Below are positions 5,351 through 11,898 of a stretch of DNA of 20,431 nt, piece by piece. The stretch is taken from positions 1 through 20,431 of IMG/VR virus record IMGVR_UViG_3300009152_000265, one strand, 5' to 3'. The DNA is from a virus. Each line of letters opens with the position of its first letter. The first letter of the stretch is position 1. The position numbers were made by a program, and so were the translations under genes. The notes under the pieces are model-generated. The model ran no database searches, had not been told where the DNA came from, and saw only the letters and a list, made by a program, of their open reading frames with translations.

Positions 5351-5683
5351 TTAGGCGGCTTTCAATTTGGCTAATTTTTCTTGATCCTTCGCAATCTTAG
5401 CCTCTAGTGCGCTTACTTCGTCCTTACGCTTAAGAATGAATGACATTGTGTCACTCCGCACTCCTGACTTGTCCTTAATATCTGCCAACGTGTAGCCTTG
5501 GCTGACCGCGATTTGGATCATGTGGGCGATTTGCCCTACGTCCATACCTCCCAATTTCTCGCGCTTTTCATTACGGCATTCCGTGATTAAAGCACGATTT
5601 GCTTTTAACGTTTCCTTGTCGAAGGAATTGCTTTTATTTACAATTTCAGACACTTGTGACTTGCTTAATGCTAACGTGTTCAT
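5351..5683 (-). CDS. First gene of the leftward arm; helix-turn-helix-like protein with coiled-coil tail
   Basis: The 110-residue product has a helical N-terminus and a central segment DVGQIAHMIQIAVSQGYTLA followed by DIKDKSGVRSDTMSFILKR. The latter fits a helix-turn-helix (TLADIKDKSGV as turn, RSDTMSFIL as recognition helix). The C-terminal VSALEAKIAKDQEKLAKLK is a short coiled coil for dimerisation. AGGAT lies about eight bases before the ATG. As the gene next to the large control region, it is a reasonable candidate regulator of the leftward arm or of the divergent region. The regulatory role is inference. Confidence 0.72.
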   Translation of the reverse strand: MNTLALSKSQVSEIVNKSNSFDKETLKANRALITECRNEKREKLGGMDVGQIAHMIQIAVSQGYTLADIKDKSGVRSDTMSFILKRKDEVSALEAKIAKDQEKLAKLKAA

Positions 5684-5744
5684 TTTTATCCTTTTTTTAT
5701 AGGTAAGCGAAAATTCCCAGCGAAATGCTGAGCTTTTTCGTGTA

Positions 5745-5786
5745 CCTAACTAGCTCACGCTTTCGCAACGGAAAGCACTAGTTAGG
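5745..5786. repeat. Long two-part stem-loop
   Basis: CCTAACTAG (5745-5753) pairs perfectly with CTAGTTAGG (5778-5786). Inside, GCTTTC (5759-5764) pairs with GAAAGC (5771-5776) around a GCAACG loop. The two stems are joined by an asymmetric bulge of five against one base. It lies in the leader of the leftward arm and could be an RNA structure, operator or origin element. Confidence 0.6.
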
Positions 5787-5811
5787 AATATTGACTTGAG
5801 CAGATTGTCAC

Positions 5812-5838
5812 AAAAACCGCGTCAGGTTTTTTATCTTT
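5812..5838 (+). terminator. Terminator-like hairpin with T-run
   Basis: On the plus strand AAAAACC (5812-5818) and GGTTTTT (5825-5831) form a 7-bp stem around GCGTCA, followed by TATCTTTT. The stem is A-T rich, so strength is uncertain. It would stop any rightward transcript coming from 5690-5800. It may also act as a hairpin in the leftward leader. Confidence 0.35.
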
Positions 5839-6356
5839 TAAGGTAAGCCGTCTCCGCTTTATGCTCGCCGCACGTAGGTATGTATATGCCTCCGCTTACT
5901 TGCTATTCCATGATGTAGGAATGCATCGGGTCGCCGCAGTATTATTCGATCGCACCGTCAGCGGGGAAGTGTGCCCGCCGCCTTGCTCGTTAAACTTTCA
6001 GAGAACACTCCCCACAATGCACATAAGGAATCTGACTACAAACAAATTCTCACTTATTTTTAATGATAATTTAAACCATTGATACACAAGCCACTTGCAA
6101 AGGATATTTCTCGCTCTCTCTGCAATTCCGCGCCCACTAATTCACCGAAAAACGTAGTAGGAATCAGAGATAAAAGGGAAGGGAAGCAGCCGCCAGCACT
6201 CCCCATGCCAACACACAACTTTTTTCTGTGCTTATTCTGTGCCAACAAGGAAACTCTTTTCGCCTTTTTTTGTAACTCTCCCCGCTCGCTAGGCAGAATA
6301 GTTTGCACTACGCAAAAAACATTTTTTCCCAAGAATGACGAGCCGGACGACCCCGA

Positions 6357-6377
6357 TCTTGACTAATTCAGTCAAGA
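6357..6377. repeat. 21-bp palindrome, repressor-operator candidate
   Basis: TCTTGACT-AATTC-AGTCAAGA has perfect 8-bp arms around a 5-base centre. Each arm includes TTGACT, a -35-like hexamer, in divergent orientation. No T-run follows. Size and symmetry fit a site bound by a dimeric regulator, perhaps one of the phage helix-turn-helix proteins. Confidence 0.5.
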
Positions 6378-6583
6378 AGACAAGTATATTGCATTTCCTT
6401 GCCTGTCCGGTAACACTTTCCTGCAACACCAGCACGCTTTATCCCAAGCCCAGCATTCACACGGAGCATAGGGGGGGAGGGGATCGGCAGCGACGGCCAG
6501 GCGCACGATATTATTGGTTAACTAGCCATTTAATAAAAATAATAAATACGTGCCTAATAGGAAACAAAAGGCTTGACACATCC

Positions 6584-6610
6584 TTTTTTCCCCCCTCACA
6601 CTCCCCCTTT
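6584..6610. repeat. Polypyrimidine mirror repeat
   Basis: The plus strand runs six T, six C, then TCACACT, five C and three T. It reads almost the same in both directions around C6599. Homopurine-homopyrimidine mirror repeats can form triplex (H-DNA) structures and are easily unwound. The location upstream of the small terminase gene fits an origin or packaging element. Confidence 0.5.
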
Positions 6611-6642
6611 CTTTACTGGTTTCTTTTAAATTTGGCTGTCTT

Positions 6643-6670
6643 GACGCGAGCACATTAAGTGCCGAGCGTC
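6643..6670. repeat. Stem-loop upstream of the rightward arm
   Basis: GACGC (6643-6647) pairs with GCGTC (6666-6670) and GCAC (6650-6653) with GTGC (6659-6662), around an ATTAA loop with small GA/CGA internal bulges. A 10-bp palindrome ATAGTACTAT follows at 6746-6755. They could be leader structures, operators or part of a terminase recognition site. Confidence 0.45.
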
Positions 6671-6843
6671 TGTGAAGAAAATGATCATATCGGTGAATTC
6701 AACCAAATGAATGCTACCAATGTCTAAGTCTTATTGAGTAGTATCATAGTACTATCCCTGGGGTATAAGCACAGAATACTCCTTATAGGTGGTGTGTATA
6801 AAGAAAACACTTGACAATTAATTTGGGTGCGAGAAAACAGGAT

Positions 6844-7356
6844 ATGCAACTTGCTAGTCAGGCTATAGTTAATTCTTTAGCTACTGTTGATAGTAGGAGT
6901 TTAGAGAGCCGCGATCCTATGAAGGCTATGCTCACGTTGGAGATGTTGAGTAGTGGGAATACGTGGGAGGAGATAGCTAACGAGACTGGCTGGAACTTTG
7001 ACCAGATATCTAGGGTGAGGGCTAGACATGGTATGGCTATAGATCAGCGGAAGAAGGAGTTGGCACAGGATGGCTTTGAGATGGCTGAGGGATTGAGGCT
7101 GCTGGTGAAGCAGAAGATGGAGCAGTTGGCTAACAACCCAGAGGCTTTGGCTAAGACCAATCTTAAGGACTTGGTGCTGCCTTATGCTATTGCGGTGGAT
7201 AAGGGAATGCAGGCTTTAGGAGAGCAGAAGACGATTGTTGAGCATCGCACTGGTAGGCCGAGTTTGGAGGATGCTATTAAGGCTATTGAAGATGCGCGGC
7301 TTGCTTTGCAGAAAGAGGCTATTCCAGTTGATAGCGTTGATATCACAAAACAATGA
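6844..7356 (+). CDS. terS: Terminase small subunit
   Basis: The 170-residue product has an N-terminal helix-turn-helix region (SGNTWEEIANETGWNFDQIS) of the type that recognises packaging sites. A helical oligomerisation part follows (EGLRLLVKQKMEQLANNPEA), and the C-terminal EHRTGRPSLEDAIKAIEDAR resembles tails of other phage small terminases. It overlaps the large-subunit gene by four bases (ATGA), the classic arrangement. The start is uncertain: a TTG at 6811 would add 11 residues and has an A/C-rich leader like other genes here, whereas the ATG at 6844 has AGGA too close to be ideal. The identity rests on position plus the helix-turn-helix; it is the DNA-selecting part of the packaging motor. 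Confidence 0.82.
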   Translation: MQLASQAIVNSLATVDSRSLESRDPMKAMLTLEMLSSGNTWEEIANETGWNFDQISRVRARHGMAIDQRKKELAQDGFEMAEGLRLLVKQKMEQLANNPEALAKTNLKDLVLPYAIAVDKGMQALGEQKTIVEHRTGRPSLEDAIKAIEDARLALQKEAIPVDSVDITKQ

Positions 7357-8960
7357 GTGTCGTCTGGAAGAACCATCCATTGCTTACGCCGCCCAATGAT
7401 CGGGAGATGGCTTCTATGCAGCCAGAAAAGATAATGGAGCTGTGGTCTATCTATCACGATGCCATTGATAATGCGGAGCGCGATCCCTATCGTTATGGCT
7501 TTAGACTAGCGCACTGGAAGCGGGCAGAAGATTTATTAAAAAAATTTAATGAAATATTGATTAGTGGTGGTAACAGGTCTGGGAAAACAAGTTATGCGGC
7601 TAGAGCTGTTGTCTGTGCGGCGATAGACAATCCTGGCAGTGTCATCATGTGCTTTGCACAGAATGCGGATGTGTCTATTAGACAGCAACAAAGCGCAGTG
7701 TATGATGCATTACCAGAGGAGATGAGAAAGAAAACTCTGGGAGCAGAAGCTAATGTAAGCTATACAAGAAAGAACGGCTTTAGCAAAAGCAGTTTAATAT
7801 TGCCTGGAAGCAAGAGTCACATTATATTTAAAACCTATGCACAATTTCTTAACAACGATACGATCCTTGAAGGTGCGGAGCTTGGCAGCCGTGAGCCTAG
7901 CGGTCTTAACATTGGGGCGTGGTGCGACGAGTATCTTATTGGGCCTGAGCTCCTCACTACTCTACGGTTTCGCTTGGCTACTAGAAATGCTAAGCTCATT
8001 GTTACGTTCACTCCAATTGATGGCTATACAGAAGTTGTCAGAGATTACATTGAGAAAGCGAGGACTATCGAAAGCCGAAGCGCGGAACTTCTTGGGGGTA
8101 GGCAAGTGCCATTCGTGCAACACAGCTTCAACCGAGACGCAGGAATCATCTACTTCCATTCCATTGACAATCCTTTTGGGGGGTATGACCGCATCTCTAA
8201 AGACCTCAAAAGCCGTCCCGAAGAAGAAATCCTCACCAGAGCTTATGGCGTGCCGACAAAAAGCGCGTCCTCGCGGTTCCCGATGTTCTCGCGGGAAGTG
8301 AATGTAATTCCACACGAAAAGATACCAACTAAGGATTTAACGCACTACATGGTGCTTGATCCTGCTGGGAGAAAGAACTGGTTCATGTGCTGGATTGGGG
8401 TGGACGTAAGTGATACATATTACGTCTACCGTGAGTGGCCAGATCAGAACGTAGGAGACTGGGCTAAGTGGCATGGTGGCAGATGGATTGGAGGCGAAGG
8501 AAGCAAGGGGTTGGGCTATGGCATCAAGGACTATGTCAACCTAGTCACTACGCTAGAGGATGAAATCAAAGAGCCAATCTTTGAACGTCTCATCGATCCT
8601 CGCTTGGGTGCAGCTAAATATCAGGGGCAAGACGGAGCTTCATCCATTATTGAGGACTTGGCAGACAGTGGGCTTATATTCATTCCCGCTCCGGGGCTAG
8701 ACATTGAGGATGGCGTGCAGGCTATCCAGACTAAGATTGCCTACAATCGTAAGGCTCCAGTGGATGGGATCAATCGCCCTCACTTCTACGTATCTGATAG
8801 ATGCCAGAACATCATCACTGCTTTGCAGGAATACACTGGTGATAGCGGCCCAGATGAGGCGTGGAAAGACCCAGTAGATGTTATTCGGTATGCCTGTATT
8901 GATGGCATTCGTTTTATTGATAGCAAGCAACCACACACTAAACGCAAAGGGGGATACTAA
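7353..8960 (+). CDS. terL: Terminase large subunit (packaging ATPase and nuclease)
   Basis: The 535-residue product has a Walker A motif GGNRSGKT at 72-79. Walker B is in IGAWCDEY, with D192 and E193 as the magnesium-binding and catalytic acids. The nuclease domain shows acidic residues in MVLDPAGRKNW (D336), LIDPRLG (D415) and DPVDVIRYAC (D506, D509), matching the RNase H-like fold of phage terminases. It cuts concatemeric DNA and pumps it through the portal at the procapsid vertex. Length is normal for the family. Its stop shares one base with the next start. The call is secure. Confidence 0.96.
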   Translation: MSVVWKNHPLLTPPNDREMASMQPEKIMELWSIYHDAIDNAERDPYRYGFRLAHWKRAEDLLKKFNEILISGGNRSGKTSYAARAVVCAAIDNPGSVIMCFAQNADVSIRQQQSAVYDALPEEMRKKTLGAEANVSYTRKNGFSKSSLILPGSKSHIIFKTYAQFLNNDTILEGAELGSREPSGLNIGAWCDEYLIGPELLTTLRFRLATRNAKLIVTFTPIDGYTEVVRDYIEKARTIESRSAELLGGRQVPFVQHSFNRDAGIIYFHSIDNPFGGYDRISKDLKSRPEEEILTRAYGVPTKSASSRFPMFSREVNVIPHEKIPTKDLTHYMVLDPAGRKNWFMCWIGVDVSDTYYVYREWPDQNVGDWAKWHGGRWIGGEGSKGLGYGIKDYVNLVTTLEDEIKEPIFERLIDPRLGAAKYQGQDGASSIIEDLADSGLIFIPAPGLDIEDGVQAIQTKIAYNRKAPVDGINRPHFYVSDRCQNIITALQEYTGDSGPDEAWKDPVDVIRYACIDGIRFIDSKQPHTKRKGGY

Positions 8961-11823: not shown

Positions 11824-11898
11824 TGGAGCCTTTGGCAGGAGTCGAACCTGCAACCGCCTGTTTACAAAACAGGTGCTCTACCATTGAGCTACAAAGGC
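11824..11898 (-). tRNA. tRNA-Thr (anticodon UGU), CCA encoded
   Basis: The cloverleaf is complete. The acceptor stem is GCCTTTG/CAAAGGC, the D arm GCTC/GAGC, the anticodon stem CCTGT/ACAGG with loop TTTGTAA (anticodon TGT, reading ACA), the variable loop has five bases, and the T arm is GCAGG/CCTGC with loop TTCGACT. The discriminator is T and the CCA end is encoded. All stems pair perfectly, so it is probably functional. It lies on the minus strand inside the rightward structural block, with its own candidate promoter. ACA codons appear frequent in the neighbouring structural genes, which fits a role in supporting late translation. Confidence 0.95.

Follow-up and report, generated by a model that had tools for sequence, protein, structure and literature searches.

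The cohesive ends of phage HK97 have been determined experimentally and carry 10-nt 3′ overhangs, while the site of its small terminase subunit (TerS) has been mapped 15–29 bp after the cut, where it includes or adjoins an A-tract (PMC11331095, PMC9410871). At the right end of the HK97 genome, a G9-ATC box is found, the G-run ending 42 nt before the genome end, and TerS starts at base 50; no mention of this G-run was found in the HK97 terminase literature searched. Pseudomonas phage D3, which is a 3′-overhang cos phage as well, features GGGGTGGGGCGGG-TC, a box separated by 40 nt from the end of the genome (GCGCCCCCA), and then GGTCTTTTT. In both phages, which were the two references with known 3′-overhang ends in our comparison (n = 2), TerS directly follows the genome end.

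The window studied here, i.e., the whole stretch of 20,431 bases, is an IMG/VR virus record corresponding to a water-phage genome. Nucleotide searches among phage records returned no match, either to the window or to its region 5684–6843, and a search of bacterial genomes for a host or prophage using the large terminase subunit (TerL) found nothing. According to its sequence and to the analogy with HK97 and D3, the core of this region is probably a DNA-packaging site of HK97/D3-like layout, with a cut predicted near 6522–6531 (Table 1).

Table 1. Features of the divergent region and of the adjoining terminase genes (positions in the window).
Feature	Position	Strand	Description
Block A	5684–6035		Conserved non-coding region; probable leader/operator region of the leftward arm
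Stable hairpin in block A	5743–5785	−	Located in the probable leader of the leftward transcript
G-box (G7AG4)	6471–6482	+	cosQ-like core of the probable packaging site; single-copy, conserved
Spacer	6483–6512		Sequence variable, length nearly constant
Box 2 (ATTGGTTAACTAGCCATTTAATAAAAATAA)	6513–6542	+	ATTGGTYA..GCC..A-tract; candidate cut region and putative terminase-binding box
Predicted cleavage site	6522–6531		Estimated from the box-to-end distances in HK97 and D3
Block B	6573–6640	+	TTGACA, 18-nt spacer, CACACT flanked by C-tracts, TTTCTTT(TA) repeats
Block C	6739–6799		Conserved palindrome-like element (AGTATCATAGTACTATCCCTGGGGTATAAG...CTCCTTATAGGTGGTGTG)
TerS	6844–7356	+	Assigned by position and helix-turn-helix architecture
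TerL	7353–8960	+	PHROG 2, E = 6.5e-21; Pfam Terminase_6N above its cutoff

The gene-free region and its borders

The region extends between a leftward ORF (5351–5683, minus strand, start at 5683) and a rightward gene with its ATG at 6844, and these two starts make the coordinates of the gene-free divergent stretch reported by the first-pass annotation exact. Its remark that no frame looks coding is borne out both by the codon scores of the ORFs inside the region, which range from −0.05 to −0.42 bits/codon (window genes: +0.02 to +0.43; mean of spurious ORFs: −0.19), and by the longest open stretch, which is ordinary, being matched or exceeded in 11% of shuffles. Three ORFs considered as coding candidates (5861–6082, 6079–6366 and 6335–6658) were ruled out by these codon scores. 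Relatives were collected through the similarity of their TerL (80 in total), and we looked in them for a conserved protein encoded in the region, but none was found. The region is mostly unalignable between relatives, and the alignment recommended by the same annotation did reveal conserved blocks, i.e., the G-box, box 2 and blocks A, B and C. The G- and C-runs described earlier are real, one of them being extraordinary, and TTGAC boxes are indeed present (at 5792, 6364, 6573, 6642 and 6811). Of the hairpins, those resembling terminators are modestly above chance (4 vs. 1.3 ± 1.0 expected), whereas the inverted repeats mostly have their arms separated by hundreds of nt.

The gene at the right end, identified from the start as the small terminase gene, is a conserved small-terminase-like gene that aligns from its ATG with 11 homologues. 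Its AF2 model (pLDDT 75) consists of a helical N-terminal domain and a long helix; fold comparison yielded no significant PDB match and the family libraries no match at all. Downstream of TerL come a gene of 128 aa, one of 691 aa at the place of the portal, one of scaffold size and one for an SU10-type capsid protein. In three relatives (L005, L010 and L012), insertions of about 0.4 kb separate TerS and TerL. Finally, a tRNA-Thr (TGT) lies antisense inside the late operon (11824–11898, minus strand), the Rfam scan of the window finding only a tRNA, and a minus-strand tRNA-Thr (TGT) is also located downstream of TerL in L005, L008, L026, L033, L035 and L047.

The G-box, box 2 and the predicted cut

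The G-box is common to nearly all relatives spanning the region, in which it takes the form of six to nine G, one A or C, and four to six G. In 18 of 18 records, it is confined to this site, where it forms one run or a pair of runs and invariably precedes the late region, and 66 of the 67 matches found on both strands of 1.5 Mb of relatives lie just upstream of TerL (≤1.9 kb) and on the TerL strand. Its distance to TerS is variable, ranging from about 130 to 665 nt across relatives, the TerS gene of the window starting 361 nt after the G-box. Box 2, which is kept across relatives, reads ATTGGTYA..GCC..TTAAAAAAAT and is located about 47–48 nt after the G-box. The copy carried by the window is slightly degenerate (G7AG4-ATC; broken A-tract), which counts against the packaging-site reading. 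When the A-tract was not demanded by the search, 17 of 18 loci, all dissimilar to one another, nonetheless had it begin 46–51 nt past the G-box (shuffles: 0.07). In the set for which the search pattern did require an A-tract, the spacer between the two boxes has almost no information content, and such an information-poor spacer of fixed length fits a cut site whose end sequence need only match itself. As a side observation, box 2 is duplicated downstream of the G-box in L022, L130 and L209, the two copies being separated by about 60 nt.

The terminase recognition site (pac/cos) suspected in the first-pass annotation is thus strongly supported by a single-copy site, its fixed spacing, its place upstream of TerS and the parallel with HK97 and D3. 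By analogy with these two phages, we further infer that the terminase would cut here and leave cohesive ends with a 3′ overhang, and where exactly it would do so. Briefly, the G-box would act as a cosQ-type signal, and the terminase, helped in its binding by the A-tract box, would cut the concatemer about 40–50 nt further downstream, inside box 2 or next to it. TerS and TerL would then be the leading genes of a linear virion DNA that starts at the cut, and the spacer would be free to change in sequence but not in length.

Alternative readings and the flanking blocks

Instead of a fixed cut, the site could be a pac site, at which a first cut would be followed by headful packaging, thereby producing permuted ends. 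Four near-complete contigs (G031, G039, G040 and G047) close into circles at unrelated points, as expected for permuted genomes or concatemers, and most contigs read through the site. Moreover, the 691-aa protein in portal position has about the size of the portal protein of P22, a headful phage. Nevertheless, a fixed cut agrees better with the near-constant spacing of the two parts and with the HK97/D3 parallel, and the near-complete contig L026 (38.9 kb) is broken at the box, starting just after it and stopping about 10 nt before it. More generally, the left ends of 6 of 29 contigs fall at the box, within 80 of 2100 nt (P about 7e-4, for an interval chosen post hoc), but this pile-up is weak evidence for a packaging site here because poly-G itself can break assemblies. 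We regard a pac site as unlikely.

Also unlikely is the idea that, in place of cohesive ends, the site would define direct terminal repeats like those in the annotations of phiM5 and LUZ24. Sinorhizobium phage phiM5 shares with the window its module order, a related capsid protein and an annotated terminus immediately upstream of TerL, in the form of a 357-bp direct terminal repeat, with a C9 tract 34–42 nt from the end of the repeat. The place of this terminus also speaks for packaging from the site as such. However, the C9 tract is oriented the other way and has different surroundings, LUZ24 is devoid of an exact G-box, and the doubled segment is invisible in contigs.

The region was also proposed to hold a replication origin, for which the G-box and the AT-rich box would bind an initiator and promote unwinding. 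The single copy of the site, the AT-rich box beside a conserved box and the repetition of box 2 in three relatives are compatible with this idea, as is the cumulative GC skew of the window, a check already suggested in the first-pass annotation, with a sign change and a minimum that do fall in the region (~6250–6750). Yet, this minimum coincides with the divergence of the genes and is therefore uninformative on an origin, the region lacks any short-spaced iteron array, and a G-rich box is carried by the packaging ends of HK97 and D3. The origin receives no specific support and appears improbable. Finally, it is very improbable that the conserved boxes are nothing but operators or promoters of the late operon, since the divergent genes, the TTGACA blocks and the presence of block B directly before TerS in relatives would suit transcription control, but not the variable distance between G-box and TerS, a TerL 13–18 kb away in one group and promoter matches at chance level.

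For blocks A, B and C, which flank the probable packaging site, the most likely role is to drive or regulate transcription of the two divergent arms. Block A, which has no Rfam match, was found in no viral contig other than L126 (using two exact k-mers of 18 and 25 nt), to which it is 91% identical over 347 aligned nt, compared to 83% for the adjoining gene. It is probably the leader of the leftward transcript, and this leader RNA is possibly structured: the minus-strand fold of 5684–5833 reaches z = −4.1, and its hairpin shows one compensatory change in L126 (A-T to C-G).

Block B, a probable promoter-like element, is found 76–87% identical about 80 nt upstream of TerS in seven relatives (L005, L008, L009, L017, L022, L024 and L047) and on the minus strand inside the late operon of seven others (L046, L051, L054, L058, L061, L063 and L071). 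In four of the latter (L046:7805, L054:9645, L058:12312 and L061:14610, minus strand), the block (TTGACA, C5-N7-C5, TTTCTTTTA repeats) occupies the late-operon gap that holds the tRNA in the window. We also observed that its reverse complement (GGGGGAGTGTGAGGGGG) resembles the G-box. Block C lies next to TerS, in the same place, in L126 and L081 (74–83% identical), and only in these two among the loci compared. Blocks B and C, which flank TerS in different subclades, are probably promoters. Altogether, the divergent promoters proposed in the first-pass annotation are plausible from the TTGACA block before TerS in one subclade and from the block beside TerS, but the number of full sigma70-like matches in the region does not exceed chance (2 vs. 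2.5 expected).

Distribution of the box and its counterparts in described phages

To go beyond the TerL-based collection, a protein-free scan was carried out on 2.9 million viral contigs, using only the non-coding G-box/A-tract pattern, and 108 contigs matched. Among the 80 pattern-matched contigs examined, 55 have a TerL homologue no more than 2.3 kb away and on the same strand, while 7 of the rest end too early to judge. The pattern mostly led back to the window-type terminase, and in part to different terminase families and arrangements of genes. In L153, L197 and L159, the box precedes another TerL family, with an HNH (in L153), methyltransferase or homing-endonuclease gene in between. In a further group (L132:197, L163:10015, L181:4703, L200:1990 and L164:4778), the same G-box and A-tract layout is mostly followed by a head-closure-like gene of 820–990 aa, and TerL is found 13–18 kb downstream, which counts against the packaging-site explanation. 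The occurrence of the box in such new gene contexts argues for an independent DNA site rather than for the TerS promoter.

Similar arrangements exist in described phages. C75C1 (OQ984151) has the divergent layout, the terminase-to-capsid gene order and the composite box in the same place, albeit with a degenerate box 2 and a TerL only 42% identical to that of the window. Cronobacter phage Ss1 and Vibrio phages VA-RY-3 and PVA7 show G5AG5-GTAA 211–284 nt upstream of the predicted TerS (the gene before TerL), but their TerL is of the BcepC6B/Mx8-like family and their second box is another one. No G-box was found in the sequence stretches examined of BcepC6B, MEP301, Hodr and Mx8.

These distributions lead us to the tentative and still doubtful proposal that a G-box at a fixed distance from an A-tract may be a cos signal, so far without a name, that is common to a wide range of 3′-overhang phages (the window family, C75C1, HK97, D3, Ss1-like phages and at least one more terminase family) and would have been kept while terminases, cohesive-end sequences and neighbouring genes were exchanged. 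A search of the literature for the motif string of the boxes retrieved nothing. Finding packaging sites by sequence is difficult, and nearly all uncultivated phages lack a mapped one. If the proposal holds, the ends of virion DNA would be predictable from sequence alone, and a once-per-genome box with near-constant spacing would allow genome-end prediction for more than 100 metagenomic phages. It would also indicate that packaging motors have a recognition step in common, which has outlasted the replacement of terminase genes.

With HK97, the likeness lies in the order of the elements, i.e., a G-rich box on the coding strand (G9-ATC), 42 nt, the cut, then an A/T-tract and TerS. In contrast, the surrounding sequence is unrelated, the termini of the window family are predicted from sequence, and HK97 has an HNH gene near cos, whereas none was found among the window proteins scanned (the window being partial). 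Moreover, the cut-to-T7 distance of HK97 is unlike that of the window family, with the T7 tract about 64 nt after the G-run vs. 46–51 nt for the A-tract, which counts against a packaging site of this layout. D3 belongs to another phage group, has its G-box interrupted twice and an HNH gene alongside, but the distance of its T5 tract fits the window family better than does the T7 tract of HK97. Its succession of box, 40 nt, end and GGTCTTTTT is closely like that of the L089-type relatives, in which AACGCCCCCA-TAAAAAAA is found at the distance corresponding to the D3 end.
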